Shown piece after piece: positions 21,020 through 52,188 of a stretch of DNA of 64,000 nt (positions are counted from its first letter, which is position 1; each line of letters opens with the position of its first letter). This DNA comes from Calditrichota bacterium (lineage in GTDB: Bacteria > Zhuqueibacterota > Zhuqueibacteria > Zhuqueibacterales > Geothermadaptataceae): assembly GCA_008501765.1 (NCBI GenBank), contig QQUE01000012.1, forward strand, positions 372,001-436,000, written 5' to 3'. Made by a program: the position numbers and the translations under genes. The notes beneath the pieces were generated by a model, which saw only the letters and a program-made list of their open reading frames with translations, searched no databases and was not told where the DNA came from.

Positions 21020-21020
21020 A

Positions 21021-26034: not shown

Positions 26035-26355
26035 GTGGATGTTGAAGCCATACGGCTGATCAATTTTATGGCCTTTGAAGATACCGGCTGGATCGAGCTT
26101 AAGCCGATCACGCTGCTGTTTGGGCATAACTCAAGCGGCAAAAGTGCTATTCTGCGCGCGCTACGTTTACTGAAACAAAGCTTGAAAGCGGATAGCAACA
26201 ATGGGCCGCTAATCTTTCTCGCTCGCAACCAGCTCGATCTCGGTGCTTTTCAAAGTGCATTGCACAGAAAACCCGATGATAAAAATGATACCGAGCGGTT
26301 TATGGTTTTTTGCTTCCGCTGTACACTTTCTATGCAAAAAGAGGAAGCCGTATAA
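26035..26355 (+). CDS. AAA ATPase, N-terminal part with Walker A (gene split by an in-frame stop)
   Basis: A 106-aa product from GTG 26035, preceded by aagaaggagat. It contains IRLINFMAFEDTGWIELKPI, the strand order of SMC/OLD-like ATPases, and Walker A GHNSSGKSAILRAL. It stops at TAA 26353-26355, and the next codon is an ATG in the same frame that opens the second half. Either one ATPase carries a nonsense mutation, or it is made as two chains. Composition is like the cas genes up to about 26280 and AT-rich afterwards. Confidence 0.75.
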   Translation: MDVEAIRLINFMAFEDTGWIELKPITLLFGHNSSGKSAILRALRLLKQSLKADSNNGPLIFLARNQLDLGAFQSALHRKPDDKNDTERFMVFCFRCTLSMQKEEAV

Positions 26356-27921: not shown

Positions 27922-27922
27922 A

Positions 27923-28417: not shown

Positions 28418-28460
28418 GGTATCACTTACAAATATTGTAAATGAACCAAGGAATAATATC

Positions 28461-30956: not shown

Positions 30957-31096
30957 CCAATATAAGAGAATGCCATCGAATCGCCGATTTACCGCACCTG
31001 TGGCAAGCAGGAGATCAGTGTACACCTTCATCAAATTTGAGAGAGCTTAATAATATCAAATACCTGAATTAACATATTTGGAGATCACAAAACACT

Positions 31097-31498
31097 ATGG
31101 ATGTATTTAATGTTTTCGCTGGAATGGCCAGTATAATTGGTACAGGATTCGCTCTCGGTGCTTGGCTTAAAGCACGTGAAATTGATAAAAAGATGAAAGC
31201 AAAAGAGGAGCGACTAAATAGAAAGATAACCGTTGCACTTCAAGTCGGTGGAAAGACCTATGATTTGCCTTTCAAATTCCGAAGAGCTGAATTTACTCGA
31301 GCAGAGATTCTTGGAAGAATTGGCATGATTCCTACGAAAAATCCAAAACAACGATTTGAATTAACTTACACGAATACTTCCAAATTTCTTGAGAGAGTTA
31401 ATCAAATCAATGACGAAGGCGGTGAATCAATATTTGTCATTCCATGCTCTGATGAAGAATTCGATCAATTTAATTTTGATGCAAACAAAGTATTTTAA
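31097..31498 (+). CDS. Small membrane protein of unknown function
   Basis: A 133-aa protein with one predicted N-terminal membrane helix (residues ~3-24, VFNVFAGMASIIGTGFALGAWL), a charged helical linker rich in Lys and Glu, then a ~90-residue soluble domain. I do not recognise a family. It lies between the second large RAMP gene and cas6, on the same strand. Its place in the operon suggests a CRISPR ancillary role, possibly linking the response to the membrane. Confidence 0.55.
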   Translation: MDVFNVFAGMASIIGTGFALGAWLKAREIDKKMKAKEERLNRKITVALQVGGKTYDLPFKFRRAEFTRAEILGRIGMIPTKNPKQRFELTYTNTSKFLERVNQINDEGGESIFVIPCSDEEFDQFNFDANKVF

Positions 31499-31510
31499 AA
31501 GGCCAAACCC

Positions 31511-32362
31511 ATGCCCTCACTCCTCTCCCTCATCTTCCCTCTGACAGCAGAAGCCGACACCACATTCCCCGTCGATGGCGGGCGCATACTGCAAGGTACG
31601 TTTCTCAACTGGCTGCAGCAGGAAGAGCCGGAACTGGCGGCCAAACTGCACGCCGACAACCGCATGCGGCCCTACACCATTTCGCCGATGCTGGGTGTGC
31701 GCGAGCATAAAAACCACCGCTTTGTTCTTAAAAAAGGTGACGAAGCATGGTTTCGCCTCAGCGGACTCGAGCCGGAATTTAACGCCAAAGTTTTGGCAAT
31801 GGCGGAGCAACTTGGACACGGTCCGCAACCGGACGATACGCGTATTCAGCCCGGAAAGCCGCTCTTTAAGCCGCAGGAGCATACTTTAGCCGCGAGCCTG
31901 GACGCAGACACCTTTTCTCAACAACTTGCTGCAGAAGCAGAACAGCGCAGTTTACCCTACGATGTCAGTCTGCAATTTTTAACGCCCACGTGTTTTATGG
32001 ACGATGGCATTTCCGTGCCCCTGCCGATACCGCGCATGGTCTTTGCCGGATTGGCCAACCGCTGGCAAATGAGCGCGCAACAACCGCTGCCTATTGAAGA
32101 CGGCGACTATCTGCTCGATAAAATTCATATCGCCTGGGCGCGTTTGAGCACCCGCGCCGTAATCAATGAAAAATTTCGCCGGGTGGGTTTTGTCGGCACA
32201 ATTCGATTTGCAATTGCACCGAAAATGCCTTACATTTACCGGTACACACTGCACCTGCTGGCGCGACTGGCGTTTTTCACTGGCGTTGGTTCCTACACAA
32301 CTGTCGGTATGGGACAAACCCAGATTGAAGACAGTGCAAAGAAACGTAATGACAAATTGTAG
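31511..32362 (+). CDS. cas6: Cas6 endoribonuclease
   Basis: A 283-aa Cas6-type RAMP. The N-terminus has LQGTFLNWLQQEEPELAAKLHAD and RPYTISPMLG, and the C-terminus has YTLHLLARLAFFTGVGSYTTVGMGQTQIE, the Gly-rich loop typical of Cas6. It would cut pre-crRNA at the base of the repeat hairpin and leave an ATTGAAAC tag. It is the last gene before array 1. Confidence 0.85.
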   Translation: MPSLLSLIFPLTAEADTTFPVDGGRILQGTFLNWLQQEEPELAAKLHADNRMRPYTISPMLGVREHKNHRFVLKKGDEAWFRLSGLEPEFNAKVLAMAEQLGHGPQPDDTRIQPGKPLFKPQEHTLAASLDADTFSQQLAAEAEQRSLPYDVSLQFLTPTCFMDDGISVPLPIPRMVFAGLANRWQMSAQQPLPIEDGDYLLDKIHIAWARLSTRAVINEKFRRVGFVGTIRFAIAPKMPYIYRYTLHLLARLAFFTGVGSYTTVGMGQTQIEDSAKKRNDKL

Positions 32363-34835: not shown

Positions 34836-35735
34836 AGCAATTAAAAATTGAAAATGGAAAATTAAAAATTAGGTGATCTGGGCCGCTCACAATTTGCGTG
34901 CATTTCTTGATCTTCATTTTACATTTTTAATTGTGCATTTTTAATTCCGAAGGCCGGCAGGAAAGCACGAAGTACAATCAAAAAGCAATTAAAAATTGAA
35001 AATGGAAAATTAAAAATTAGGTGATCTGGGCCGCTCACAATTTGCGTGCATTTCTTGATCTTCATTTTACATTTTTAATTGTGCATTTTTAATTCCGAAG
35101 GCCGGCAGGAAAGCACGCAGTGCAATCCAAAAGCAATTAAAAATTAAAAATGGAAAATTAAAAATTAGGCGATGTGAGCCGCTCAAAATTTGCGCGCTTT
35201 TTTTGATCTTCATTTTGCATTTTGCATTTTTAATTCCGAAGGCCGGCAGGAAAGCACGATGTGCAGTTGAAGAGCAAGTAAAAATTAAAAAATGGAAAAT
35301 TTAAAATTAGGTGATCTGGGCCGCTCACAATTTGCGTGCTTTTCTTGATCTTCATTTTACATTTTTAATTGTGCATTTTTAATTCCGAAGGCCGGCAGGA
35401 AAGCACGAAGTGCAATCAAAAAGCAATTAAAAATTAAAAATGGAAAATTAAAAATTAGGTGATCTGGGCCGCTCACAATTTGCGTGCTTTTCTTGATCTT
35501 CATTTTACATTTTTAATTGTGCATTTTTAATTCCGAAGGCTGGCAGGAAAGCACGCAGTGCAATCCAAAAGCAATTAAAAATCAAAAATGGAAAATTTAA
35601 AATTAGGCGATCTGGGCCGCTCACAATTTGCGTGTTTTTTTTGATCTTCATTTCGCATTTTGCATTTTTAATTCCGAAGGCTGGCAGGAAAGCACGCAGT
35701 GCAATCCAAAAGCAATTAAAAATGGAAAATTAAAA
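34799..35735 (+). repeat. Degenerate CRISPR repeats alternating with AT-rich hairpin units
   Basis: Seven shortened repeats (ggccggcaggaaagcacg…) start at 34799, 34952, 35100, 35241, 35390, 35538 and 35679, 141-153 bp apart. Between them lie near-identical ~115-bp blocks: a left arm (gcaattaaaaattgaaaatg…), a GC-containing centre (gatctgggccgctcacaa) and a right arm (cattttacatttttaattg…) that is roughly complementary to the left. This is a tandem amplification at the array end, not a functional spacer set, because the inserts are alike. Confidence 0.85.
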
Positions 35736-35750
35736 ATGGGGGTGGATGTT

Positions 35751-36104
35751 ATGAAAGAGAATGTGATTCGCGATAAATCTTTTTCTTTGGCGAAAAATGT
35801 TCTTCAACTCATTTCAAAATTGCCTGCAAATTCACAAGGATTTGTTCTTAGCAACCAGCTCGGACGTGCCGGAACATCCGTTGGCGCTAATGTGGAAGAA
35901 GCAATAGCGGCATTTAGCAAAGCCGATTTCAGGCATAAAATGAGTATCGCACTAAAAGAGGCCCGCGAAACCAATTACTGGCTGCGATTAATTCATGAGA
36001 CACAACTCATCCAAACGGAAAATTTACATTCGACAATTTCGGAGAGTGAAGAAGTCATGCGCATTCTTGGCGCTATCGTGAAATCATCAAGCCCGAACAA
36101 TTGA
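35751..36104 (+). CDS. Four-helix-bundle protein (23S rRNA intervening-sequence protein family)
   Basis: A 117-aa protein. ENVIRDKSFSLAKNVLQLI, FVLSNQLGRAGTSVGANVEEA, KMSIALKEARETNYWLRLI match the TIGR02436/S23 four-helix-bundle family. It starts after a GGGGGTGG site. The AT-rich left arm of the preceding repeat units lies just upstream (35710-35738), and the right arm (cattttacatttttcattgtgc…) follows its stop at 36126-36160, so the gene appears to sit inside one hairpin unit. Function unknown; the family is often found in rRNA intervening sequences and at mobile loci. Confidence 0.85.
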   Translation: MKENVIRDKSFSLAKNVLQLISKLPANSQGFVLSNQLGRAGTSVGANVEEAIAAFSKADFRHKMSIALKEARETNYWLRLIHETQLIQTENLHSTISESEEVMRILGAIVKSSSPNN

Positions 36105-36650
36105 GCTATAATATCTGTTTCTTATCATTTTACATTTTTCATTGTGCATTTTTAATTGCACCACCTTTGGTCGCGTAATTAATGTAACGATCAAACTCTA
36201 CTGGGGAATTTTTCCAGCCACTGCGCTGTTACCACGAAAGACGAGCAATCCCGCAGTGAAATGGATATTTCTGATGAATCGCCCCTTCTAAATCCGGTAC
36301 ACAACGGAGTTTCACCCTTGAATTTCCAGTGAAAACCGAACCTGAATCTCCTTCCGATCCGCGAATTTTTTACATTTTTATTTTCAATCGTTTTGCTTTG
36401 TGAAGACCGGCATACAGTCCGCAGTGTTCCACACTCACAGCAACAGCACTTTCATGAATTGAACATCTCCGGTCCGATCTCCGGCGAGCTCCTGTAATTT
36501 GAGGAGCATCGATTTGCACCTGCGCCCTGCAACGACTTTAAATCACAGAGTTTCCGCCATCTGGTTAATCAAATGTGGAAAACAAACAATCGCTGCATCT
36601 GTTTGTTTTCCACCAAACCGCAACTTACTTTTGAAACAAAGGAGTATCTG
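36105..36650. other. Intergenic region with no supported gene
   Basis: After the AT-rich right arm at 36126-36160 there is about 490 bp without a reading frame I can support. An aaaggag site precedes the next gene. Confidence 0.5.
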
Positions 36651-37496
36651 ATGCTTCCCAAGAAAAATCGAAAGTATGTTAGCCAACTTGCTCAATGGGC
36701 ACGTGAACCGGAGAACCGAGAACATTTGAATGTGATTAACGGGCTGCTGCAAACGGAACTAACAGCATGGATGACTGAAATTGCAAAGCGTTACTACATC
36801 CGCGGACTCAGAAAAAAACAGGGAGTTGATAGAACTGAATTCGCTCATTTATGTACAACAAAACTACTGGGTTACATGGATGAACATCCTGACAGTATGC
36901 AGGATAATTTACTCACCGATAAAGACCTCGAGTATTTTCTCCGGCGTTTAGCCCGAAACATGGCGACCGATCTTTTAAGAAAAAAAGAAAATATTTATTT
37001 CGACCTTATGGATGATTTCTCTTCCCTTGAAGGTAAATTGCGCCATTCTTACACGCGATTATCCGCTGATCTGGATCCGATTCATATTATTCTCAATGCC
37101 TGGCCGGCGCTCCATTACGAACTCGTCAATTTACCGAAAATCATGCATGATTTTCTCGAATCCCTGCGTCTAAAACGCAAATCGATTCGTATACGGAACG
37201 TGGCAGCCGCTCTTCTCACTTATTGTCGCAGTGAGGGCGAACGCAACCATATATTCTGTTATTGGCTTCTTGCCTGGATTTTATTTAGAGGAGGAAGGCT
37301 TTATAAGGATTTAAAAGTGTGGCTGCGAACTCGATTTCCAAATCATAAATATTCTGCTATCATCAGCCAGATAACGCAACTCAGAAAAAAGTTTAAAACA
37401 TATCTGCGTGAGAATGATTTGCATGATTGGGTCCATTGGCTGACGAGTGATTTTACCCACAGTGAAGAGCCACCGCCAATATCTGTACTTGCTTAA
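36651..37496 (+). CDS. Unrecognised protein with weak sigma-70-region-2-like segment
   Basis: A 281-aa soluble, mainly helical, basic protein from ATG 36651 with a good aaaggag site. The segment DKDLEYFLRRLARNMATDLLRKK resembles the region-2 helix of ECF sigma factors (…ARN.A.DLLRK), and a basic C-terminal helix pair (KDLKVWLRTRF, SQITQLRKKFKTYL) could be a DNA-binding unit. Both are suggestions only. It begins a same-strand series leading to RT, cas1 and cas2. Confidence 0.5.
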   Translation: MLPKKNRKYVSQLAQWAREPENREHLNVINGLLQTELTAWMTEIAKRYYIRGLRKKQGVDRTEFAHLCTTKLLGYMDEHPDSMQDNLLTDKDLEYFLRRLARNMATDLLRKKENIYFDLMDDFSSLEGKLRHSYTRLSADLDPIHIILNAWPALHYELVNLPKIMHDFLESLRLKRKSIRIRNVAAALLTYCRSEGERNHIFCYWLLAWILFRGGRLYKDLKVWLRTRFPNHKYSAIISQITQLRKKFKTYLRENDLHDWVHWLTSDFTHSEEPPPISVLA

Positions 37497-37593: not shown

Positions 37594-38670
37594 ATGCAAA
37601 AATTGCAAACCGAATCTGATCAGAATCCGGAAAACACCTGGGGGGTTGAGACGATGGATTCCTGGAAATGCTTTCGTCTGGTACGTGAATTGTACCTGAA
37701 ATTAAACCGCCCGGCAAATTCTGCGATGCCGCTTGTGCTTTCATTTCGCCCCTCGGCGGAACGTGCGGCCTTGCACTATTTGCAATGGCTTTCGCGTCTC
37801 GGCCGTTCCGCTTCTGGAATGGCCGTTTTGTTTTATGGCTCCGGTAAAATGCCATTTGTAGGCGATGTGCCTGACATATCCGAACACCGGTTGCTCCTCA
37901 TTCACAAAGCAAGCCGGTTCATCGATATGCAGCACCTGTTGCAGCTTAATGAACAACATGAAAACCTTCGCCTGGTTCTGACTGTTCCGGAGACAGAAAC
38001 GGAAATAATCAAATCGTGGGGTGGTAAATTCTGGTTAGAACAAATACCTGCTTTCGAAGACAGCTATACTGAAAAAAAAGCGGATGAGATAATCGCCCAC
38101 TACCTTGGCCGTTTGGAAGAAGTGCATCCGCAAATCGATTTACTTTTACAAATTATTGCTGAAGCTGGCCGGGCGGATGTACAGCTCCCACTATCCTTTG
38201 TTGCGAAACATGTTCAGCTCGAAAACCGCACATTATTTGCGCAACTGCTTTGCGAACCGATGAGTGCTTTTGTCACATTATTACATGAACACAATCCACG
38301 GTCGGCACAATTGCAATTTCGCGGCCGCTGGTTAGCCGAAGCCCTTTCCATCGCAGGAAAGGAGAACAGAACTGATTTTCCCCATTTAACAGCATTGGTA
38401 CATTATGCCGATCCAAATTTGAATGCTGACCGGCGCTTTTTGCTCAACCTGTTGGTCGCATTGTGGATTGCCTGGAGAGGCAGTGACAGGCTGCACTTTT
38501 TTATGGCTTTGCACAGGGAAAAAATAGCTGTTTGTTACAAAAGTTGGCAGCACGATTTCATCAGAAATTACAACCGGCAAAAAGCCGGCAGCGATCATCC
38601 CTTTCTCATTGATTTTTATCAAAGCTGGCAGGCAGTCACAGCGCCGCAAAATAAAGTACATAATTCCTAA
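37594..38670 (+). CDS. Unrecognised protein, possible degenerate ATPase
   Basis: A 358-aa soluble protein. SAERAALHYLQWLSRLG stands where a P-loop might be, but no GxxxxGK[ST] is present. HRLLLIHKASRFIDMQHLL and ENLRLVLTVPET resemble the Walker B and sensor-1 strands of AAA/STAND ATPases. The C-terminal half is all-helical. It lies 12 bp before the RT gene, so it is probably co-transcribed with RT and perhaps part of the adaptation module. Confidence 0.5.
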   Translation: MQKLQTESDQNPENTWGVETMDSWKCFRLVRELYLKLNRPANSAMPLVLSFRPSAERAALHYLQWLSRLGRSASGMAVLFYGSGKMPFVGDVPDISEHRLLLIHKASRFIDMQHLLQLNEQHENLRLVLTVPETETEIIKSWGGKFWLEQIPAFEDSYTEKKADEIIAHYLGRLEEVHPQIDLLLQIIAEAGRADVQLPLSFVAKHVQLENRTLFAQLLCEPMSAFVTLLHEHNPRSAQLQFRGRWLAEALSIAGKENRTDFPHLTALVHYADPNLNADRRFLLNLLVALWIAWRGSDRLHFFMALHREKIAVCYKSWQHDFIRNYNRQKAGSDHPFLIDFYQSWQAVTAPQNKVHNS

Positions 38671-38682: not shown

Positions 38683-39579
38683 ATGTTTGCATCTTCAGTT
38701 TACAAACAATTTTGTTCCGATGAAAACTTGAACAAAGCCTGGCGAGCGATTCGCAGACAAGGCCAGGCAACCGGTGTGGATGGTGTTTCCTTGACATATT
38801 TTGACAGCCGGTCGTTTTTATTACTTAAAGCTTTGCAGGCAGATTTATTAAAATTCAAATACAAACCGCAGCCGGTAAAACGCATCTTTATCAAAAGAAA
38901 AGTCGGTGCCATGCGGCCGTTGGGAATTGCCACCGTGAGAGACCGCATTGTGCAGCGCGCCATGGTGCAAATGCTTTCCCCTCGGTTCGAGCCGCACTTC
39001 GATGATTACAGCCACGCCTACCGCACCGGGCGTTCGCCACAAAGCGCGTTAGCGCAGGCGCGGGATCATGCTTTAGGGTCACGGCCCTGGTTAGTGAAAC
39101 TCGATCTTGAAGATTGTTTCGGCACCATTCCCCATCGGCCGCTCCAGCGTATTGTACAAAAACGCATGCATGATTCGGCCATTCGTCGCCTGCTGAAAAA
39201 ATTTCTTGAAGTGGAGGTAATCACCGAATCCAATAGCGGTTTGCGCCAGATGGAAAAACAAAAAGGATTGCTGCAGGGCAGCCCGCTCTCCCCTTTGCTG
39301 GCCAATATTTATCTCGATCTGTTCGACAAAGCCGCCCGAGAACGCGAGCTGCGTTTCGTGCGCTACGCGGATGACATTGCTATTTTCGAAACCACACGAC
39401 AAAGCGCAGAGCAGGCAATGGACATGTCGTTACAAATTCTGGAGAAATTAGGATTGCAGCCAAACCGCAACAAAACGCGCTTGCTCAATCTGGTGAAAGG
39501 CTGCACTTATCTTGGCGAGTGGCTGGCATTGGAAAAAAGCAACAATGGGCATTGGAAAATCGCAAATAAGCGATGAGAT
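38683..39579 (+). CDS. Reverse transcriptase, CRISPR-associated, apparently missing its thumb
   Basis: A 297-aa RT of the group II intron/CRISPR type. Motifs in order: GVDGVS, MRPLGIATVRDRIVQRAMVQML, catalytic strand WLVKLDLEDCFGTIPH, QGSPLSPLLANIYLDLF, YADD at about residue 228, and GCTYLGEWL. The reading frame ends about 15 residues after this last motif, and its final codons and TGA stop (cga tga) are the first bases of the palindromic repeat block. The usual thumb region is therefore absent. It precedes cas1 in the order found in RT-Cas1 fusions; acquisition from RNA is plausible. Confidence 0.85.
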
Positions 39580-41137
39580 CGCTGCTTCTGCGATGTTATC
39601 GCTCCAGCATCGCCAAGTTTGCATATTGGTCTAATTTTTATTGATTCCATCGCTTTGAGCGATTGAATCAAATGGCCACAAGCGATGAGATCGCTGCTTC
39701 TGCGATGTTATCGCTCCAGCATTACCAGGTTTGCATATTGGTGTAATTTTTATTGATTCCATCGCTTGGAGCGATTGAATCAAAGCGCCACAAGCGATGA
39801 GATCGCTGCTTCCGCGATGTTATCGCTCCAGCATTGACTCGTTTGCATGCTGTGTGTAAATTTTATTGATTCCATCGCTTGGAGCGATTGAATCAAAGCG
39901 TCACAGCGATGAGATCGCTGCTTCTGCGATGTTATCGCTCCAGCATTGCCAGGTTTGCATATTGGTGTAAATTTTATTGATTCCATCGCTTTGAGCGATT
40001 GAATCAAAGCGTCACAGCGATGAGATCGCTGCTTCTGCGATGTTATCGCTCCAGCATTGACTCGTTTGCATGCTGTGTGTAAATTTTATTGATTCCATCG
40101 CTTGGAGCGATTGAATCAAAGCGCCACAAGCGATGAGATCGCTGCTTTTGCAATGTTATCGCTCCAGCATTGCCAGGTTTGCATATTGGTGTAATTTTTA
40201 TTGATTCCATCGCTTTGAGCGATTGAATCAAAGCGCCACAAGCGATGAGATCGCTGCTTCTGCGATGTTATCGCTCCAGCATTACCAGGTTTGCATATTG
40301 GTGTAATTTTTATTGATTCCATCGCTTGGAGCGATTGAATCAAAGCGCCACAAGCGATGAGATCGCTGCTTCCGCGATGTTATCGCTCCAGCATTGACTC
40401 GTTTGCATGCTGTGTGTAAATTTTATTGATTCCATCGCTTGGAGCGATTGAATCAAAGCGTCACAGCGATGAGATCGCTGCTTCTGCGATGTTATCGCTC
40501 CAGCATTGCCAGGTTTGCATATTGGTGTAAATTTTATTGATTCCATCGCTTTGAGCGATTGAATCAAAGCGTCACAGCGATGAGATCGCTGCTTCTGCGA
40601 TGTTATCGCTCCAGCATTGACTCGTTTGCATGCTGTGTGTAAATTTTATTGATTCCATCGCTTGGAGCGATTGAATCAAAGCGCCACAAGCGATGAGATC
40701 GCTGCTTTTGCAATGTTATCGCTCCAGCATTGCCAGGTTTGCATATTGGTGTAATTTTTATTGATTCCATCGCTTTGAGCGATTGAATCAAAGCGCCACA
40801 AGCGATGAGATCGCTGCTTTTGCGATGTTATCGCTCCAGCATTGACTCGTTTGCATGCTGTGTGTAAATTTTATTGATTCCATCGCTTGGAGCGATTGAA
40901 TCAAAGCGTTACAAGCGATGAGATCGCTGCTTCTGCGATGTTATCGCTCCAGCATTGACAGATTTGCATATTGGTGTAATTTTTATTGATTCCATCGCTT
41001 GGAGCGATTGAATCAAAGCGCCACAAGCGATGAGATCGCTGCTTTTGCGATGTTATCGCTCCAGCATTACCAGGTTTGCATATTGGTGTAAATTTTATTG
41101 ATTCCATCGCTTGGAGCGATTGAATCAAAGCGTCTTG
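39569..41137. repeat. Tandem array of 14 GCGAT palindromic units (~112 bp each)
   Basis: Units start at 39569, 39681, 39793, 39905, 40016, 40129, 40241, 40353, 40465, 40576, 40689, 40801, 40914 and 41026. Each has three short hairpins: agcgat-gag-atcgct, gcgat-gtt-atcgc and atcgct-ttg/tgg-agcgat. A five-unit block (560 bp) is repeated, 39793-40352 against 40353-40912, giving a higher-order period. Small reading frames in it are by-products of the repeat. A single relative lies at 8650-8731. Confidence 0.95.
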
Positions 41138-41205: not shown

Positions 41206-42183
41206 ATGACCACACTTTACGTGCGTGAATACGGTACCGGCGTTGGTCTCAACGACGGCCGTATACAAGTGCGCCGCAAAGGCAAAATTTTGCAGGAAAT
41301 TCCCGCCCTGCAACTCAAACGGATTGTCATGATGGTACCGGCGTCAATCACGCAGCAGGCGCTGCATTTTATGATGGACCGTGGAATTGAAATTGCATAT
41401 CTTTCCCAAAATGGAAATTACTATGGAGCATTTACCCGTGGTGACGGCAATCATGTTTTGTACCGTATGGCTCAGTTCAAAAAACACGGCGATACCCGAT
41501 TTCGTTTGCAGCTCTCCAAGCGTTTTATCGAGGGTAAAATTGCCAATATGCTGCTGATATGGAAGCGGCAAAAGCGCCACAATAACAATGGCAAGCAGCT
41601 CAAACAATTGCATGAAATCCAGCAGCGGCTGCAGTCGGCAAAAACGCTGGACATCCTGCGCGGCCATGAGGGTGCAGCCTCCGTTATTCATTTTCACCTT
41701 TTACGTACGGCATTGCAAGGAGATTGGTATTTCAAGCAGCGCATTCGCCGCCCACCACCGGATCCGGTTAACGCCATGCTCAGTTTGGGTTACACCCTTC
41801 TCTATTCACGCATGAGCAGCACCATTCAACTGCACGGTCTCGATCCATATCTCGGTTTCTTTCACGAAATAAAACGCGGCCATGCCGCCCTGGCTTCGGA
41901 TATGATTGAAGAATGGCGCGTGCCTGCTGTAGATGCCCTGGTTTTGCGTTTGGTTAATACCCATCAGCTTAAACCTGCGGATTTTCGTAAGGATAAAAAG
42001 GGGTACACGATGAGCAAACCCGCACTGGAAAAATTTGCTACTGCGTTCGAAGCCCGGCTGCAAAAACTTGGTAGCACACCCAACGAATCCACAGATCCAG
42101 TCGCTGGTATGGCAGGCCAGGTGCGGCAATTACAGCGTGTGCTTCTCAACAAGCAAAAAAAATATACGGCTATTTCGGGCTAA
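41206..42183 (+). CDS. cas1: Cas1 integrase
   Basis: A 325-aa Cas1. The N-terminal beta domain begins TTLYVREYGTGVGLNDGRI. The helical catalytic domain has GHEGAA (Glu near residue 155), LGFFHEIKRG (His near 219) and LASDMIEEWR (Asp near 232), the three metal ligands. It lies 69 bp after the palindromic array and 39 bp before cas2. It integrates new spacers at the leader-repeat junction. Confidence 0.96.
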   Translation: MTTLYVREYGTGVGLNDGRIQVRRKGKILQEIPALQLKRIVMMVPASITQQALHFMMDRGIEIAYLSQNGNYYGAFTRGDGNHVLYRMAQFKKHGDTRFRLQLSKRFIEGKIANMLLIWKRQKRHNNNGKQLKQLHEIQQRLQSAKTLDILRGHEGAASVIHFHLLRTALQGDWYFKQRIRRPPPDPVNAMLSLGYTLLYSRMSSTIQLHGLDPYLGFFHEIKRGHAALASDMIEEWRVPAVDALVLRLVNTHQLKPADFRKDKKGYTMSKPALEKFATAFEARLQKLGSTPNESTDPVAGMAGQVRQLQRVLLNKQKKYTAISG

Positions 42184-42222: not shown

Positions 42223-42525
42223 ATGGCTAATAATATAAAAACCAATAAAACTTTTCTCGTTGTGGCCTACGATATCTGCAATGACAAACGCTTGCGAAGG
42301 CTGCATAAACAGCTTAAAAAGTACGGCATTGCCGTGCAGTACTCGATCTTTGAAACCATACTTTCCAGAACCGAGCTGGCGGCAATGAAAAAAGATATTC
42401 GCAAGATTATCAAACCTAAAAAAGGCGACCGCGTGCGTTATTATTTCCTGTGTGAAACGTGCCGCCAACGCATCGAATCAACCGACGGAATGATTGTCAG
42501 CGAAAAACCAGCCGTCTTTGTTTGA
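42223..42525 (+). CDS. cas2: Cas2
   Basis: A 100-aa Cas2. VVAYDICNDKRLRRLHKQLKKYGIAVQYSIFE is the ferredoxin-fold signature with the conserved Asp on strand 1. It completes the Cas1-Cas2 integrase. The next gene begins 63 bp downstream on the same strand. Confidence 0.93.
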   Translation: MANNIKTNKTFLVVAYDICNDKRLRRLHKQLKKYGIAVQYSIFETILSRTELAAMKKDIRKIIKPKKGDRVRYYFLCETCRQRIESTDGMIVSEKPAVFV

Positions 42526-42588: not shown

Positions 42589-43638
42589 ATGAATATCCTC
42601 AACCCACATTACCAAAGAATAAAGCTTTGCCTGTGTTTGTTATTTATTTTCACTGCCAATCTTGCAGCACAGGAAAGCGTTGACGTGCCGCAACAACTGC
42701 AGGATGATGTCCGGGAAGTTTATCTCACTTTTGATTCATTGAAATCTTTAAGCAAAGATATTCGCACCCAGACACAGGGCCTGTTAAAAGAAGTGCAGCG
42801 GTTACAGCGCCAACTCGCTTTACAGAAAAAAGGGTCGCGCAATTACAAGGTTTACCGCCGCCAATACGAAGTCAAACTTGCAGAATATCTCGCTTACAAA
42901 CATGACACATTGCAGGATATGCAAGAACTGCGCTTAAAAACCATCGATGCACTCGAACGAATTCTTGCCAGCCTGAATCAACAGGATGGCGGTGAAACCC
43001 GGGCCTTGCAGGAAAAAATCAACAAACAGCTGCGGCAGAACGAGGAACGTATCGTGCAAGTCAAGCTGGAAATGCTGGAATTGCTGAACGAGCTCGACGA
43101 CAAAGAATTAGGGGAAACAGAGCGCTCGGATATTACACGGAAATATTATCAATTGCAAAACAACCGGCTGGCGCTTTATCAACAGCACAAAACGCGCTTT
43201 TCACAATTGCTAACGGTGGCCTCCAGCGATAACAGCCACCTGCCTTTGATGCGAAAATCGCTGGTGGGCATTCATGAAACCCTGCGCTATGGTTTCGACT
43301 GGATTGAAATAGAAAAAGCATATATCGAACTTTATGCCGGCCATCGGCAGCAGTGGCTGAAAACAGATCAGAAACTCACCGAAGTGAGCGGCTTGATGGA
43401 GCAATTTGGTGAATTAATTGAAGCCATAAACGGTAGCAGCAGTCTCCTGCGCGATGTGGAACAATTTGACAAGCAAGTGACAGCTGACGACGATAGCCAG
43501 GTTTTTCTGCCCACCTTGCCGGAATTGCAGTGGCCGGGGCGTCCTGAACAAGTGACGCATTCACAACCACTAAGTCCGGCAATGATCGATTCCTTAAAAC
43601 ACGCCATCGAAAGCGAATTACAAGCTGAGAAAAATTAA
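42589..43638 (+). CDS. Exported coiled-coil protein next to cas2
   Basis: A 349-aa protein. From ATG 42589 it has a signal sequence (IKLCLCLLFIFTANLAAQ-ES) followed by ~300 residues of nearly continuous charged heptad-type helix (LKEVQRLQRQLALQKK, EKINKQLRQNEERIVQVKLEMLELLNEL). It should be periplasmic, elongated and oligomeric. I do not recognise a family. It leads a five-gene set with ExbB- and ExbD-like proteins. Confidence 0.6.
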   Translation: MNILNPHYQRIKLCLCLLFIFTANLAAQESVDVPQQLQDDVREVYLTFDSLKSLSKDIRTQTQGLLKEVQRLQRQLALQKKGSRNYKVYRRQYEVKLAEYLAYKHDTLQDMQELRLKTIDALERILASLNQQDGGETRALQEKINKQLRQNEERIVQVKLEMLELLNELDDKELGETERSDITRKYYQLQNNRLALYQQHKTRFSQLLTVASSDNSHLPLMRKSLVGIHETLRYGFDWIEIEKAYIELYAGHRQQWLKTDQKLTEVSGLMEQFGELIEAINGSSSLLRDVEQFDKQVTADDDSQVFLPTLPELQWPGRPEQVTHSQPLSPAMIDSLKHAIESELQAEKN

Positions 43639-43711
43639 AATCGCCACGCCACAATTTAGAATTTTACATTTTTAATCTTACATTTTTAATTAATTCCCCC
43701 GGAGTCAAGTA

Positions 43712-44263
43712 ATGAACTTTTTCACTTCCATAAAATACATCGGACCAGTGTGGCCAGCGATGTTATTCTGCTTCGTTTTTATGGCAGGCACATCGCTTTT
43801 TCTTGCCCTTGCACGAATGCGGGCCTGGCTGGCATCCATAACCTTGAATGAGCACCAGTTTCTCCAGCGTGTATACGATGCCACCGAAATGTTCAGCACC
43901 CTCGCCATTCTCAGCGGCATGATCGGCACCTGTCTCGGATTGCTCGACGCCCTGCCGGTGCTTGGTCAATCATTGAGTGACGGCGGAAATGCCAATTCTT
44001 TTGCTGCCGTACTCAAACCCCTGCGCAATGTCTGGGTGTCAACCGTTGTTGGTTTAGGGCTGGGCGGTATTTGGGGTGAAGTGCTGATGTTTATCCTTAA
44101 ACCGTATACACGCAGCACCACGCTGCCCGTGACACACGAAGAACTGCCGCAACCGGTTGCTGAAATTGATGAAACCGCACTCCCGGAAATTGATGAAGAC
44201 AATGCCGGAGAAAACAATCTGGATGACGACTGGCGCAGCAGAGACACAAGCGGAATGTATTAA
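43712..44263 (+). CDS. ExbB/TolQ/MotA-like membrane channel subunit
   Basis: A 183-aa membrane protein with about three transmembrane helices (~12-32, ~65-88, ~108-130). ATEMFSTLAILSGMIGTCLGLLDALP and LRNVWVSTVVGLGLGGIWGEV match the two core helices of ExbB/TolQ proton-channel proteins. The C-terminal ~45 residues are acidic and disordered. It is shorter than housekeeping TolQ/ExbB. RBS ccggag precedes the start. With the ExbD-like protein downstream it should form an ion-driven motor. Confidence 0.75.
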   Translation: MNFFTSIKYIGPVWPAMLFCFVFMAGTSLFLALARMRAWLASITLNEHQFLQRVYDATEMFSTLAILSGMIGTCLGLLDALPVLGQSLSDGGNANSFAAVLKPLRNVWVSTVVGLGLGGIWGEVLMFILKPYTRSTTLPVTHEELPQPVAEIDETALPEIDEDNAGENNLDDDWRSRDTSGMY

Positions 44264-44390
44264 CGAAAGTTTCAAGGTTATATGAAAATATAAAAAATCA
44301 AACAGGATTGACGAGATAAACAGGACAATTTTATAAGTTATCTTGTCAATCCAGTTGATCCTGTCAAAAAATAACCGAAAAGGACAAACC

Positions 44391-44852
44391 ATGAAAGTAT
44401 TCAAATACCTGGTTGCGCTGGCAGACATTTCGGTGGGTTTTCTCGGGCTCTTCTTTATCATTTTTGCTGTCACGCGCCCGGTCACTCCCGAAGTGATGCA
44501 GCAAAACCGTGCGCTCGATAAAAAAGTGCGCGAATTGCAAAACCATCTGCAAAGTCTGCAAAATATCGAACTCAGCCGCACCGGCAGTGGCACAATTTTA
44601 CAACGGAAAAACGCGGCCGAAATCATTATTTTGACCAATGGCAATATCAACGTAAAAGTTGGTTCCCGGAAACAAAATTTAGACAATGCTGCTCAATTTG
44701 CCACTTTCGCGCAAAAACAAAAATGGCCGCAGCATGCCATCCTTTATATCGAGCGCACCGTGCCATTTGCACAAGTGACCGAAGTCATCGATCATTTGCG
44801 CCAAAAAGATCAGAAAATCCAGGTGCAAATTGCCACCTTGCGAAAAAAATAA
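44391..44852 (+). CDS. ExbD/TolR-like motor subunit
   Basis: A 153-aa protein with one N-terminal membrane helix. The segment ADISVGFLGLFFIIFAVTRP matches the ExbD/TolR helix, including the Asp (residue 12) that carries protons in the family. A coiled-coil stretch follows, then a periplasmic domain whose end ILYIERTVPFAQVTEVIDHLRQKDQ fits the ExbD fold. The chosen start ATG 44391 has an aaaagga site. It pairs with the upstream ExbB-like gene. Confidence 0.75.
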   Translation: MKVFKYLVALADISVGFLGLFFIIFAVTRPVTPEVMQQNRALDKKVRELQNHLQSLQNIELSRTGSGTILQRKNAAEIIILTNGNINVKVGSRKQNLDNAAQFATFAQKQKWPQHAILYIERTVPFAQVTEVIDHLRQKDQKIQVQIATLRKK

Positions 44853-44865
44853 TGCACCTAAATTG

Positions 44866-44950
44866 AATAATTCTCGCGCAGAGTCGCAAAGAAAAGATTA
44901 AAAGATATAAAAAGAATAATTCGTTGCGAACGCTGTGACTCTGCGTGGGG
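44866..44950. repeat. Imperfect inverted repeat
   Basis: Arms tcgcgcagagtcgcaaag and cgctgtgactctgcgtgg pair imperfectly around an AT-rich loop just after the ExbD-like gene. It is related in type to the palindromes at 957 and 3738. Confidence 0.5.
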
Positions 44951-44978
44951 TGTTTTTAAAAAAATATGAATAAAGCAG

Positions 44979-45278
44979 TCTGGCTATCCAATTAACTCAG
45001 CAAGCGGTGAATATGCCACCCCTCCGGGGTTCTCCGGTTTTTTTGAGTTCACCGAGTTATAATCATTGCACCCCACCGGGGTTTTGCAGCATAACAAAAC
45101 AGATTAATTTTTTTATCCCGGAGGGATGACATGATTATAACAACTGAAAATCCAAATATTTAAACCCCGGAGGGGTGGCATAGTTTTGTAGACTTTTTGA
45201 AAAGGCTAATTTTTGCAATATAGGTAACATTATATTTTTACAAGAAGTTGAAAATGCTGAGTTAACTGGATAACCAGA
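44979..45278. mobile_element. 300-bp MITE with 24-bp inverted ends and 9-bp target duplication
   Basis: The ends 44979-45002 and 45255-45278 are inverted copies (22 of 24 match; tctggctatcca… type). They are flanked directly by ataaagcag on both sides (44970-44978 and 45279-45287), a 9-bp target-site duplication. A second inverted pair inside (atgccacccctccggggtt near 45012 and aaccccggaggggtggcat near 45163) adds structure. There is no open frame for a transposase. It separates the ExbD-like gene from the next operon gene. Confidence 0.85.
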
Positions 45279-45309
45279 ATAAAGCAGGCTAAAACTAAGG
45301 AGAAATAAT

Positions 45310-45771
45310 ATGCGCTTTATATTCGGACTCTGCCTCGGTATCGTGCTCATGGTGCTGATACTGATGATCGACTGGCAGGAGCAAATATCCAATAGCCCCG
45401 GACTAAAATTCGTACAGGATATTTACAGTTCGGTGATGGATAAAATGTCGCCACAGCAAAATATACCTGTCGTAGAAACACCGCCCGACAGCCTTTATCT
45501 GCCAAACGAAATCCCCATGGACCTGCCCTTTCTCGAAATGGAGGCGGAAAAAGTATTGTCAGATACAGGACAAACCGACGCACCACAAATGCATCGCATC
45601 ATTCAACCGAAAAAGAAAAAACCGGAAACGACGCCGCTTTATTCCAAAGACCTTAACGACACGGAATACCGCAGCCAAAGTCGTGAATTATTACGCCGCA
45701 GCCGCGATCAATATGCACGAATCCTGAAAAACGACAGCACCGGAACAAAACGAAGGAAGAATGAACAATGA
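45310..45771 (+). CDS. Single-pass membrane protein of the motor module
   Basis: A 153-aa protein with one N-terminal helix (FIFGLCLGIVLMVLILMI) and a soluble part that is Pro/Glu-rich, then basic (PKKKKPETT, RSQSRELLRRSRDQYARIL). RBS aaggag precedes ATG 45310. No family recognised. It overlaps the next gene by 4 bp, so the two are translationally coupled. Confidence 0.6.
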   Translation: MRFIFGLCLGIVLMVLILMIDWQEQISNSPGLKFVQDIYSSVMDKMSPQQNIPVVETPPDSLYLPNEIPMDLPFLEMEAEKVLSDTGQTDAPQMHRIIQPKKKKPETTPLYSKDLNDTEYRSQSRELLRRSRDQYARILKNDSTGTKRRKNEQ

Positions 45772-46523
45772 CCCCTCTGACACTGCAGCGGTTATGGAAA
45801 ACCAGTGTGGGCCTCATCTTATTTTCGCTTATTTTTTTCTACCTTGGCATGCCGCTATTCAAAGATAACGCTATCGATCCAATGCCGACCGCAACCAATA
45901 AACCAACCCTGCAAACGCCCAAACCGCAGGATGTAAAAAATCAACCCAGCTATACTTACATTGGTGAATCGCAATCAACAATGGTCGATGAAAATCAGAA
46001 AAATGGGACTGGCTCCAAACATCCTGCCCCGGCAGCTCCTTTGCGCGTATCGGAGAATAAAACAAAAAAAGGCCAGGTGCCCGATCTTTTTATCGATCTC
46101 GGTAGCCACAGTCTATCGGAAATCATTGCCCATCATGGTTTTCTTCCAGCCATAAAATCGCCGACACGTGTTCTTGGCAAAATCGAAAATAATCGCTTTA
46201 AACCGCTTACCGCCCAAGAACTGAAGCGCTTTGCCCGTCGTGGCCGGAATGGCCAGGCATTTCCAGCAGCACGACGCTGGCTGCAGCGTATCGCTGCGGA
46301 ATTCAATATTCCGGAAAACGAACTGCAACTCATTCTGCTCGTTCCCCATGAAACAGAAGTCCGTTTTTTAACAGCACAGAACCACGCGATGCAAAAAAGT
46401 GGAATCCCGAACCGGGAAATAGCTTCGATGCAAGGCTATTATGATAAAATGTTTGATCTTGAAATCACAGAAATCCAAACCCGTGATGGACGGAAACACC
46501 CGGTTTACAATTCCAGTCAATAA
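45768..46523 (+). CDS. Single-pass membrane protein with periplasmic C-terminal domain
   Basis: A 251-aa protein with one N-terminal helix (SVGLILFSLIFFYLGMPLF), a ~90-residue Pro/Thr/Lys-rich linker (TNKPTLQTPKPQ…), and a ~140-residue folded C-terminus (DLFIDLGSHSLSEIIAHHGFLPAI…AARRWLQRIAAEFNIPENELQLILLVPHETE). The layout of helix, extended linker and terminal domain resembles TonB/TolA in form only. It is the last gene before the leader of array 2. Confidence 0.6.
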   Translation: MTPLTLQRLWKTSVGLILFSLIFFYLGMPLFKDNAIDPMPTATNKPTLQTPKPQDVKNQPSYTYIGESQSTMVDENQKNGTGSKHPAPAAPLRVSENKTKKGQVPDLFIDLGSHSLSEIIAHHGFLPAIKSPTRVLGKIENNRFKPLTAQELKRFARRGRNGQAFPAARRWLQRIAAEFNIPENELQLILLVPHETEVRFLTAQNHAMQKSGIPNREIASMQGYYDKMFDLEITEIQTRDGRKHPVYNSSQ

Positions 46524-46829
46524 AAATATCTCAACCTCATAAAAAATAACTTGTTTTGCAATACTGTATTCGGTAAATTTAAAGCACGCCTTTCTTTACT
46601 TTTTTGCATTGAATCACCGAGAAACTGCAGCAACCAGAATTCACACCAGACGCCTTCCCGACGATGTTCTTTGAAATTTTTCAAAAATGAAAACAGAAAT
46701 TTCAGCGCATTTTCATTGTTATGATTTGCAACACCCCAAAAATCATTAAACAACCCTACAACCGGAACATTTTGTTAATTATTGAATTAACCAATATTCC
46801 AGCACCAGACTGATTCCATAACCCGGTTA
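46524..46829. other. Non-coding gap before the array 2 leader
   Basis: About 300 bp with no supported gene. It contains no clear terminator that I can define for the membrane operon. Confidence 0.4.
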
Positions 46830-47417
46830 ATAAAAATGTCAGCAAGTCAGCATCGCAAGCCGGTTAGGGCTAACCAAAAAACAAGAAGTTACCAAGCATT
46901 TTTACAAACACCTGCTACCAGCTTTTGTCACACGGATTAATTTATAAATTCAAGAAAATGCATCTGCATTTCAATATATTGAATTTTAACAACTTAACTA
47001 AGGGATGAAATTTCTTAAAACGCCCCAAAATCGGCAGATTTGGCAAATGCGAAAACTGTACCGGATCGTACACCGATTTTTTGCATCACTTAATTGGTTG
47101 TTTTTTCAATAGCTTATATTCGATTTTTTATCACTTGATTTTACCAGAAGCCAACTAATTAATTTTTAAAGATTTAACTCCTTACTTTTCAAACACCTGT
47201 TTGTAACAATAAAGTAACAGGCGATTTTGAGCACTTAATGTCAAATAAAAATAAACAGTTAACGGCTAAACAGGTGACAACTCTTTAAAAATAAATAGCT
47301 TAAAACCTGAGAAAGGAGCGCAATGCTAAGAACAGGAGAGAAAAAACCGGCGGTGTTTGAAACAGCAAAAATTGCCCCTTTAAAAACAAGAGTTTATGGT
47401 AGCAAAAAAGGGCGACA
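46830..47417 (+). promoter_or_regulatory. Leader of CRISPR array 2
   Basis: About 590 bp homologous to the array 1 leader: aatgtcagca at 46834, tttgtcac near 46926, gtaccggatcgtac at 47058-47071 (360 bp before the first repeat, as in array 1), cacctgtttg at 47194, caggtgacaa at 47271, and aaaacaagagtttatg just before the first repeat. It has the same orientation as leader 1. Confidence 0.8.
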
Positions 47418-50289
47418 GGCCACACCGGCAGGAAAGCACGTAGTGCATTGAAACCTGACCTTAATGGTCAGATTCCCCTTTTTTGATAGGCCACACCGGC
47501 AGGAAAGCACGTAGTGCATTGAAACACATTGTCTCCCGTAGAACTGAGAGGTTAAGTTTGGCCACACCGGCAGGAAAGCACGTAGTGCATTGAAACAAAT
47601 CTTGTTTCTTTTTTTTGCACTTCCGCAACCGGCCACACCGGCAGGAAAGCACGTAGTGCATTGAAACTATCATAGTCCCTCCTCGACAAAGTAATCTCGT
47701 AGGGCCACACCGGCAGGAAAGCACGTAGTGCATTGAAACCTTTTGTATTGCCATGGTAAGTCTTATAGCACTTAGGCCACACCGGCAGGAAAGCACGTAG
47801 TGCATTGAAACAATTCATTCTTGGCGTTCGCCATGAATGCAGATATGGCCACACCGGCAGGAAAGCACGTAGTGCATTGAAACGTTGGTGGCACGGGGGG
47901 TGCCGGGGGTGAAAAAGGCCACACCGGCAGGAAAGCACGTAGTGCATTGAAACAAACATAAGCAGCACATCATGCACCTACTATTTAGGCCACACCGGCA
48001 GGAAAGCACGTAGTGCATTGAAACTTGCTTCATGATCACGTCACCGCCCATATTTGAGGCCACACCGGCAGGAAAGCACGTAGTGCATTGAAACTTTTGA
48101 CAGCCCAAAGCACTGAGGAGGCCGATGAGGCCACACCGGCAGGAAAGCACGTAGTGCATTGAAACTCGCCCCATTCTTGGGACAAACAGTCACTCGTGTG
48201 GCCACACCGGCAGGAAAGCACGTAGTGCATTGAAACTATCCACACTAACAACATCAGGTACTTCCGTAAGGCCACACCGGCAGGAAAGCACGTAGTGCAT
48301 TGAAACGAATCCGTGACTACTAACCAGTAGAAGGTATCCAAAGGCCACACCGGCAGGAAAGCACGTAGTGCATTGAAACTATTTCTTAGTGACAGTTCCA
48401 TCGGAACACTTGGGCCACACCGGCAGGAAAGCACGTAGTGCATTGAAACTTTGTTGTGATTTTATCCGAAGAACTCTTTCACGGCCACACCGGCAGGAAA
48501 GCACGTAGTGCATTGAAACCTTCTTTACCAGATTCAAGGGGCGCATCGAGTGAGGCCACACAGGCAGGAAAGCACGTAGTGCATTGAAACAACAGCTGCT
48601 GTCCAAAATCCAATCGGCAAAACTGGCCACACAGGCAGGAAAGCACGTAGTGCATTGAAACAGATGTATAAACAAAATTAATTTAATTGATTTCAGGCCA
48701 CACAGGCAGGAAAGCACGTAGTGCATTGAAACATTTTTAGGGCCACCACAACAATGACAATTGTCCGGCCACACAGGCAGGAAAGCACGTAGTGCATTGA
48801 AACGAATTATTATTCTCAAATTTGTTTTTGTTTTCAAGGCCACACAGGCAGGAAAGCACGTAGTGCATTGAAACCCCCGTAGCCGACAGTCCAGGTTCCT
48901 TTGATTAGGGCCACACAGGCAGGAAAGCACGTAGTGCATTGAAACAATGCTTTCTATGGCCATCTGGATTTTTGAATTGAGGCCACACAGGCAGGAAAGC
49001 ACGTAGTGCATTGAAACGAACCACAACACAGCCTGTGTCGAGGTATTCAAGGCCACACAGGCAGGAAAGCACGTAGTGCATTGAAACGCACCAAGTGAGT
49101 CGATCTGGATCGACGCATCAGGGCCACACAGGCAGGAAAGCACGTAGTGCATTGAAACATGCCTCAGAATCCCACATGACCTGTAACATGTCAGGCCACA
49201 CAGGCAGGAAAGCACGTAGTGCATTGAAACTTACTCACTACTGGCGAGTGTGGACTGGAACCGGGCCACACAGGCAGGAAAGCACGTAGTGCATTGAAAC
49301 ATTCGTCTGAGGGCGTACCGGAGCAGTACTCGTGGCCACACAGGCAGGAAAGCACGTAGTGCATTGAAACTCATCTATCTATGCGTCCTGAGGACTTGCA
49401 CCAGGGCCACACAGGCAGGAAAGCACGTAGTGCATTGAAACAAATCGTTTACCTCGTCTAACAGCTTCTCTCCAAGGGCCACACAGGCAGGAAAGCACGT
49501 AGTGCATTGAAACATAGCGATAATCACACTACCCAAATACGACAATGGCCACACAGGCAGGAAAGCACGTAGTGCATTGAAACACTCCTCGCGCAGAGCC
49601 AATTCATTTTTGCTAATCGGCCACACAGGCAGGAAAGCACGTAGTGCATTGAAACGTGACAAGGTAGAACGACAACCTACCCTCAAACGGCCACACAGGC
49701 AGGAAAGCACGTAGTGCATTGAAACTTATGCACAGAGCTCCCATGGACCATTTCATGGGGCCACACAGGCAGGAAAGCACGTAGTGCATTGAAACATACC
49801 GTTTACCGTCTTGACAACGTCATCCCGAGGCCACACAGGCAGGAAAGCACGTAGTGCATTGAAACCTTATGTGACACACCTTTTCGATTTGGCACTCTTG
49901 GCCACACCGGCAGGAAAGCACGTAGTGCATTGAAACTTTCTTCGGTGGTCGAACCAGAATTGCCCTTAACGGCCACACCGGCAGGAAAGCACGTAGTGCA
50001 TTGAAACATTTTTACCGAACTGCAGAGCTGTATAGTTTTTAGGCCACACCGGCAGGAAAGCACGTAGTGCATTGAAACATGTCACGCAGGACTTCCATTA
50101 AGAGCGGCTTTGGGCCACACCGGCAGGAAAGCACGTAGTGCATTGAAACAGTTCATATCCAGAACTACCACCGCCATCATAGGGCCACACCGGCAGGAAA
50201 GCACGTAGTGCATTGAAACAGTAATGCTCCCAGATCTCATCATGCGTGCCGAGGCCACACCGGCAGGAAAGCACGTAGTGCATTGAAGA
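47418..50289 (+). CRISPR. CRISPR array 2: 41 repeats of 37 bp, 40 spacers
   Basis: Repeats start ggccacac and end attgaaac, like array 1 but with gta instead of gca in the hairpin loop and different bases 5-9. Repeats 1-16 carry caccgg, repeats 17-35 (48554-49865) carry cacagg, and repeats 36-41 return to caccgg. The last one (from 50253) breaks off after gcattgaa. Spacers are about 32-37 bp. The shared leader and tag suggest that the same Cas6 and Cas1-Cas2 serve both arrays. Confidence 0.98.
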
Positions 50290-50440
50290 GCAATTAAAAA
50301 TTAAAAGTTAAAAATGAAAAATTAGGCGATCTGGGCCGCTCACAAATTGCGCGCTTTTTTTGATCTTCATTTTACATTTTTAATTGTGCATTTTTAATTC
50401 CGAACGCCTGCAGGTAAGCACGAAAGGCATTTGAAGGGTA
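50282..50440. repeat. Single AT-rich hairpin unit at the end of array 2
   Basis: Directly after the broken last repeat comes gagcaattaaaaattaaaag…, then gatctgggccgctcacaa, then cattttacatttttaattg, the same unit as at 34836-35735, followed by a remnant repeat (gcctgcaggtaagcacgaaag near 50406). Only one copy and no four-helix-bundle gene are present here. Confidence 0.85.
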
Positions 50441-50967: not shown

Positions 50968-52188
50968 TTATGGTTTTGTGTGCAATTGCAGCCGTACCAT
51001 CGAGACGGCAGTCCGTGTTGCGCGGGTGACTGTAATTTTACATTCTGCTAATTCCACATGCTCACCCACAGTTGGTATTTTTCCAAGTTTTGAAATAACC
51101 AACCCGGCAATGGTTTCATACTCGCCAATCGGGAGTCGAAAATGCAACTGATCATTAATATCTGCAATTTCAACACGTCCGCGAACACGGTATTCTGATT
51201 TATTCAATTTTTCGATAAAATCCCCTGGTTCATCGTGTTCATCTTCAATATTTCCAAAAATTTCTTCAAAAATATCTTCCATGGTTAGTAATCCGGCAGT
51301 TCCACCGTATTCATCAATTACGATAGCGAGACTGGCTTGCATTTGTCGCAATTCTTGCAAAACTGCCAACACCGGTTTTGATTCGGGTATAAACAGGACA
51401 TCCCGAATAATTTCACTCATGCTCGCTGGTTCCTGCAAAACATCAAGGGAATTCACTACACCGATGATCTCATCCAATGTACCATCATAAACCGGCAGCC
51501 GGGAAAATTGACGTCGAATAAATTCTTTTTGAACTTTTTTAATTGGTGTCGTCACGGGGATCGCATAAATATCAGTTCTGTGAATCATCACCTGGCGTGC
51601 TTTTACATTCTTCAAGTGAATGACATTCTGTATAAAATTTTCATCCTGAGTGTGAATTAAGCCACGATATCGACTCTCCTGAAATAAATAAGATATCTCC
51701 TTTTCCGATATTTTCGTCTTAGATTGTTTTTTTTCGTGATTGATATAATGGCTCACTATACGAGACATCAGATCCAAAACTTTGATCAGCGGATAAAAAA
51801 TAATTTCCGATAAACGCACGCCGTATACATTTTGCATCGCGACTTTTTCTGCTTTTACTCTGCTAATCGACTTGGGTATTATTTCTGCAAAAACGAGAAT
51901 CAGAATTGTGGATAACCCAACGACCATGGTCTCACTGTAGTAGTTTTTAAGCATTATCGCCATATAGGAGCCAAACAAGACATTGGCAGCATTATTTCCA
52001 ACAAGAATAGTTGAAAGATAGCGGGAAGGTGATTTGATAAACTCAATCGCGAGCTTAGCGCCCCGGTGTTGCTCTTTTTTAAAAATTGAAAGTTTCAGCT
52101 TGTTTGCACTGTAAAATGCAGCCTCTGATCCTGAATAAAAAGCTGACAGGATAAATGACAGCAGAATAATCCATAGTTCAATTGTCAT
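50968..52188 (-). CDS. CorC/HlyC-family transporter-associated protein (CNNM + CBS)
   Basis: A 406-aa membrane protein: an N-terminal CNNM domain with ~3-4 helices (residues 1-150; FYSGSEAAFYSANKLKL, VGNNAANVLFGSY), a CBS pair (~190-320; MIHRTDIYAIPVTTPI, IGVVNSLDVL, VIDEYGGTAGLLTMEDIFEEIFG), and a C-terminal CorC_HlyC domain. Such proteins are linked to magnesium/cobalt efflux. Its start overlaps yigZ by 4 bp. Confidence 0.88.
   Translation of the reverse strand: MTIELWIILLSFILSAFYSGSEAAFYSANKLKLSIFKKEQHRGAKLAIEFIKSPSRYLSTILVGNNAANVLFGSYMAIMLKNYYSETMVVGLSTILILVFAEIIPKSISRVKAEKVAMQNVYGVRLSEIIFYPLIKVLDLMSRIVSHYINHEKKQSKTKISEKEISYLFQESRYRGLIHTQDENFIQNVIHLKNVKARQVMIHRTDIYAIPVTTPIKKVQKEFIRRQFSRLPVYDGTLDEIIGVVNSLDVLQEPASMSEIIRDVLFIPESKPVLAVLQELRQMQASLAIVIDEYGGTAGLLTMEDIFEEIFGNIEDEHDEPGDFIEKLNKSEYRVRGRVEIADINDQLHFRLPIGEYETIAGLVISKLGKIPTVGEHVELAECKITVTRATRTAVSMVRLQLHTKP

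Follow-up and report, generated by a model that had tools for sequence, protein, structure and literature searches.

The window, a stretch of 64,000 nucleotides from a Calditrichota bacterium (GenBank assembly GCA_008501765.1, contig QQUE01000012.1, positions 372,001 to 436,000; this genome is referred to as G000), contains a CRISPR locus in which cas2 and the leader of the second CRISPR array are separated by five genes for putative envelope proteins, including an ExbB/ExbD-like pair (Table 1). The order on the plus strand is cas1, cas2, cc, exbB, exbD, p4 and p5, followed by the leader and array 2. The initial annotation had read five genes on this strand in this interval, and all five open reading frames (ORFs) are present. 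The spacing between cas2 and cc is 63 bp, and p4 and p5 share 4 bases, an overlap seen also in both relatives that carry the full set. For exbD the start at 44391 was chosen, which is the one kept in the relatives (the longest mechanical ORF begins at 44343). Hydropathy indicates a single hydrophobic segment at the N-terminus of each of cc, ExbD, p4 and p5; for ExbB it indicates three membrane helices.

Table 1. Features of the adaptation genes, the envelope gene set and array 2 in the window.
Feature	Position	Strand	Remarks
A307	36573-37496	+	family unknown; 5' of B358, kept; weak sigma-70 region 2 match
B358	37594-38670	+	family unknown; 5' of the reverse transcriptase gene in all 5 loci of the reverse transcriptase clade
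Stand-alone CRISPR reverse transcriptase (YADD)	38683-39576	+	PF00078 E 1.2e-36; same clade in G007, G009, G011, G013
cas1 (module-carrying clade)	41206-42183	+	PF01867 E 1.5e-83; clade only in G000, G007, G009, G013
cas2	42223-42525	+	PF09827 E 2.3e-22
cc, exported coiled-coil protein, 349 residues, signal peptide-like N-terminus	42589-43638	+	no known family; of 82 KSB1 genomes, only G013 and G009 have homologues
exbB, short ExbB/TolQ-like channel protein, 183 residues	43712-44263	+	PF01618 above cut-off; aligns with canonical ExbB; in 4 of 82 KSB1 genomes
exbD, ExbD/TolR-like: membrane helix with Asp12, coiled coil, periplasmic domain	44391-44852	+	PF02472 sub-threshold; AlphaFold2 model matches ExbD and TolR
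p4, single-pass, conserved 'DW' after the N-terminal helix	45310-45771	+	no known family; G013 and G009 have homologues, G007 a remnant
p5, single-pass, low-complexity linker, C-terminal domain, TonB-like in layout only	45768-46523	+	no known family; 3 of 388 genomes
Leader region of array 2	46524-47400	+	blocks 47039-47076 and 47190-47229 common to the array 1 leader (repeat families D9, D10)
CRISPR array 2, period ~71 bp	47418-50400	+	repeats begin near 47.4 kb

The public record matching the phylum of the window is labelled candidate division KSB1. Profile searches were made with four of the five genes: those with exbB and p5 covered 388 genomes (82 of KSB1 and ~300 others), and those with exbD and cc covered the 82 KSB1 genomes. 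The block A307-B358-RT-cas1-cas2-cc-exbB-exbD-p4-p5, where RT denotes the reverse transcriptase gene, is found also in G013 and G009, which belong to another family of the same order; the full block is thus present in three genomes of two families. Because these two further genomes preserve the gene order at a protein identity of 26-64%, with nucleotide differences mostly at third codon positions, the locus is more than a chance arrangement. A partial block is present in G007 (A307-B358-RT-cas1-cas2-exbB, then a short frame weakly matching p4 and a p5-like N-terminal segment, without cc and exbD), and in G011 the sequence A307-B358-RT runs into the contig end. Every profile match lies at an RT-cas1-cas2 locus: exbB in 4 of the 82 KSB1 genomes (4 of all 388), exbD and cc in 3 of 82 each, and p5 in 3 of 388. 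The matching cas1 clade (>620 bits) comprises exactly the four exbB genomes, and the next cas1 scores 288 bits. The chance that four exbB genomes fall inside the five RT-clade genomes of the 82 is 2.9e-6 on the assumption of independent genomes, although they are related.

The next RT-cas1 relative found, in G175 of another phylum, is without envelope genes. A search of genome contigs with exbD gave one relative, the KSB1 contig JAKEEU010000156 (that is, G013), and one with p5 gave none; viral contigs (queried with exbB and exbD) and plasmids (queried with exbB) also yielded no relatives. The set recurs near cas1/RT; the four genes with profiles occur nowhere else in the genomes searched, and neither a location mainly away from CRISPR nor clustering with a housekeeping Tol/Ton or gliding system was seen. 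As judged from gene neighbourhoods, the CRISPR linkage of the module is well supported. In the locus of G009 (L015), a tyrosine recombinase-like ORF is located ~4.4 kb 3' of p5 (792-2078), a possible sign of locus mobility.

The ExbB-like protein of the window matches the MotA_ExbB family PF01618 with an E-value of 3.6e-5 and 23.9 bits, above the cut-off of 22.9, while two of its homologues stay under it (20.6 and 19.1 bits). In a single profile comparison with the canonical ExbBs of the same genome (E 5.6e-4), the second and third transmembrane (TM) helices, with the motifs GMxGT and STxxGL, respectively, are in register. T73 and T111 align with threonines that are invariant in the four canonical ExbBs of this genome. 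The proton path of TolQR consists of TolR D23 and TolQ T145 and T178, all of them essential (PMC12583513); by alignment, ExbD D12 and ExbB T73/T111 are their counterparts. Both threonines are present in G000, G013 and G009, so that the motor residues are kept in all three genomes with an exbD gene, and both are alanines in G007. The protein is indeed short, as first described: the large cytoplasmic region between TM1 and TM2 that is typical of the PF01618 family is replaced by a short loop, leaving a gap of ~50 alignment columns. The C-terminus consists, in all four sequences, of a proline-rich, acidic linker (overall acidic, less so in G007) and a tip, D-W-R-x-[KR]-D-x-x-G-M-Y. Across the four sequences 2 of 40 linker columns are invariant, against 7 of the 11 tip positions (D, W, R, D, G, M, Y).

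The ExbD-like proteins do not reach the PF02472 cut-off of 25.4 bits (16-21.3 bits; E = 0.013 for the window protein, 3e-4 in both homologues). Their N-terminal TM helix carries an aspartate (ALADISVGFLGLFF), D12, which is invariant in the three genomes. Within residues 1-30, 29 of 30 positions are identical in the three genomes, with many synonymous changes, and the remainder of the protein is far less alike. The AlphaFold2 model comprises a TM helix, a coiled coil and a periplasmic domain (predicted local distance difference test, pLDDT, 67 overall and ~80 for the periplasmic part). Its best fold matches in the PDB are the ExbD periplasmic domain 8pek (E 1.3e-3) and TolR 5by4 (E 2.4e-3), with a probability of 1.00 for both. 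The earlier assignment as an ExbD/TolR-like protein with the family aspartate in its helix is thereby borne out, and together with the ExbB match and the hydropathy of cc, p4 and p5 so is that of an ExbB/ExbD pair with three envelope proteins.

For the three partners, cc, p4 and p5, no known family was matched in scans with Pfam and other profiles. PDB sequence searches with exbB, exbD, cc, p5, A307 and B358 gave no convincing match. A match of cc to JetC, one to a nuclear-pore protein and other weak matches were rejected as coiled-coil similarity.

G007 (locus L016) offers a natural experiment, as it lacks exbD and cc and has lost both ExbB threonines. The membrane part of its ExbB shows 41-52% identity to the others (RT 63-80%, Cas1 54-68%), whereas the last 11 residues show 64-91%. 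The tip is kept while the membrane part has diverged, which points to a constraint from outside the motor. The pattern in these alignments suggests that the motor depends on ExbD, and that the cytoplasmic tip is retained on other grounds, probably for a partner in the remaining RT-cas1-cas2 neighbourhood. RT-cas1-cas2 are intact in G007, whose 6 Mb genome has the CRISPR repeat only once and yielded no relative of the window cas10.

The effector module of the window belongs to subtype III-D, with a CARF-PDDEXK Csx1. The effector locus (15738-32362) encodes two large Cas7-like fusion proteins, alike to one another (897 and 831 residues), Csx19, Csx1, an AAA ATPase and a PIN-like protein. Across the relatives this effector varies: G013 has a similar, homologous one, that of G009 is strongly diverged (its cas10-like match lies ~32 kb away from the envelope set), and for G007 no relative of this cas10 was detected in the genome. 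What the envelope genes follow is thus the RT adaptation module and not one effector type; on gene order, their recurrent partner is RT-cas1-cas2 rather than the III-D effector. A307 and B358 are probably further parts of this adaptation module.

These results bear on the coupling to the type III response that had been proposed from position. The repeated linkage to CRISPR stands; a tie to the type III effector does not follow from it, since the partner is RT-cas1-cas2, the effector varies, and profile scans found no CARF/SAVED or other known domain for sensing cyclic oligoadenylate or another signal in the five proteins. For the same reasons (adherence to RT-cas1-cas2, lack of a sensing domain), a direct type III effector is a weaker reading than an adaptation-linked device. 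Such an effector would open its channel upon target recognition, with collapse of the proton gradient or damage to the envelope, in the manner of the CorA/Csx28 accessory proteins. It would fit the III-D module at the locus in G000 and G013 and the known CRISPR membrane effectors, namely CorA homologues (III-B/III-D) and Csx28 pores (VI-B) (PMC12669027), but the module stays with the adaptation genes even where the effector changes or is missing, and the locus already has its Csx1; we consider this explanation unlikely.

A Ton- or Tol-like system for energised transport or envelope functions, placed in the CRISPR locus by chance and carried along, is quite unlikely. The sequence of ExbB-ExbD and then p5 with its TonB-like layout, the pair with periplasmic partners and the ExbD fold match do resemble Ton operons. 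However, in agreement with the initial description, which had seen no TolB, TonB or Pal gene, TonB, TolB, Pal/OmpA and TolA matches were found in none of the five proteins by profile scans (including no Pfam match to the TonB C-terminal domain in p4 or p5), no receptor gene is present, and the set never occurs outside an RT-cas1-cas2 locus in the genomes searched. The order with cas2 is kept at 26-64% protein identity, while none of the other loci yielded the marker gene of the right flank of the window (for a 406-residue CBS-domain protein, 50968-52188). A housekeeping Ton/Tol role was set aside, as separate canonical ExbB-ExbD-TonB operons exist elsewhere in the genome of the window.

The set could instead be an independent anti-phage motor stored in a defence locus and acting without the Cas proteins. 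Zorya gives a precedent for such logic, since its ExbB/MotA-type motor, ZorAB, detects the entering phage at the wall and brings in nucleases via the ZorA tails (PMC11890865); defence genes are also known to cluster, and the cytoplasmic tail of ExbB is conserved. Against this, the set strictly adjoins one cas1/RT clade, is absent elsewhere in the genomes searched, and has the cas genes as its only adjacent nuclease or helicase effectors, and we regard the explanation as rather improbable. A true Zorya system was set aside, as none of the PADLOC profiles for ZorA, ZorB, ZorC, ZorD and ZorE gave a match. Proton-driven uptake or handling of nucleic acids at the envelope, feeding RT-Cas1-Cas2, would suit the fixed position directly 3' of the RT adaptation genes and the acquisition of spacers from RNA by RT-Cas1 systems elsewhere (PMC5513706), but with no nucleic-acid-binding or competence domain found in the five proteins it is very improbable.

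The reading we favour, tentatively and at somewhat short of even confidence, is that the five genes encode an inner-membrane proton motor of the ExbB/ExbD type with three dedicated envelope partners, forming one functional unit with RT-cas1-cas2. In such a complex an ExbB pentamer would surround an ExbD dimer, and proton flow past ExbD Asp12 and ExbB T73/T111 would move ExbD. The proteins cc, p4 and p5 could couple this motion to the cell wall or the outer membrane, and in this way the complex may sense the envelope, or act on it, as a phage enters. Towards the cytoplasm, the acidic tails of ExbB would display copies of the conserved tip (DWRxKDxxGMY-COOH), which might dock a partner in the cytosol; the likeliest candidates are parts of the adaptation machinery (RT, Cas1-Cas2, or the neighbours A307 and B358). 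Spacer capture would then be gated at the envelope or placed there. A more specific version is possible but doubtful: an energised membrane complex that detects phage entry would recruit RT-Cas1-Cas2 or switch it on, and spacers would so be acquired at the right place and time. We infer the functional coupling of the envelope set to CRISPR from these associations.

Several points weigh against this motor model. The similarity of the ExbB-like protein to its family is weak, barely above the cut-off in one member and below it in others, and its short TM1-TM2 loop is unusual. Known folds are lacking for cc, p4 and p5, and the AlphaFold2 model of p5 is poor (pLDDT 44.7). The argument from the tip rests on G007, one case of decay at one locus. 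The four genomes belong to one order, where shared ancestry of the locus inflates the apparent recurrence, and hitchhiking within one ancestral locus is possible.

In comparison with ExbB-ExbD and TolQ-TolR, the proposed motor shares the GMxGT...STxxGL channel motifs, the aspartate in the ExbD TM helix and a periplasmic domain matching ExbD/TolR, but the cytoplasmic TM1-TM2 region is nearly absent, ExbB has an acidic tail with a conserved tip, and ExbD is longer in its TM region and carries an extra coiled coil. The partners are not TonB, TolA, Pal or TolB, and the context is CRISPR. With Zorya (ZorA-ZorB) it has in common an inner-membrane ion-motor core, a C-terminal cytoplasmic extension and a defence locus (PMC11890865); it differs in having no ZorA/ZorB match, no OmpA-like peptidoglycan-binding domain in the B subunit and no ZorC/D/E, and in an ExbB tail that is short and probably disordered instead of a helical rod. 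As in type III RT-Cas1 adaptation modules, the RT adjoins cas1/cas2 and is accompanied by type III effectors and arrays (PMC5513706), but the five-gene envelope set, A307 and B358 are additional here, and the envelope set is absent from the RT-cas1 relative in G175. Membrane proteins tied to adaptation modules were reported as a class in a large-scale clustering survey, whose main text and legends name FlhB, GspH, HflK, RDD and others, with no ExbB/ExbD motor among them (PMC10910872). Searches of an open-access library brought up no description of ExbB/ExbD genes within CRISPR loci. The motor core is of a known kind; its partners and its immune context are new.

Further features were noted at the locus. 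The interval between RT and cas1 (39568-41130) contains ~14 tandem copies of a ~112-bp unit. Nearly identical copies recur at a distance of 560 bp, and the three related loci were not reported to have such an array at this place. From exbD to p4 there is a gap of 457 bp, which contains, at 45017-45177, three copies of the GC-rich CCCCGGAGGGGTG (one mismatched, two in minus-strand orientation); the expected number for the window is 0.03, and this cluster is probably an inserted dispersed repeat. Adjoining array 1, an ORF at 35628-36104 resembles the 23S rRNA intervening-sequence (four-helix) protein; proteins of this type are named among adaptation-linked genes in the survey cited above (PMC10910872).

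The timing and placing of CRISPR adaptation during infection are poorly understood. Since the adaptation genes of this clade are always followed by putative motor genes, which are found nowhere else in the genomes searched, the locus suggests a tie between the formation of CRISPR memory and what happens at the cell surface. The residues through which this can be tested are ExbD D12, ExbB T73/T111 and the tip DWRxKDxxGMY. If the proposal is true, an energised envelope complex in an adaptation operon would tie surface events to memory formation, and would be a second immune setting, beside Zorya, for a motor of the ExbB/MotA type.

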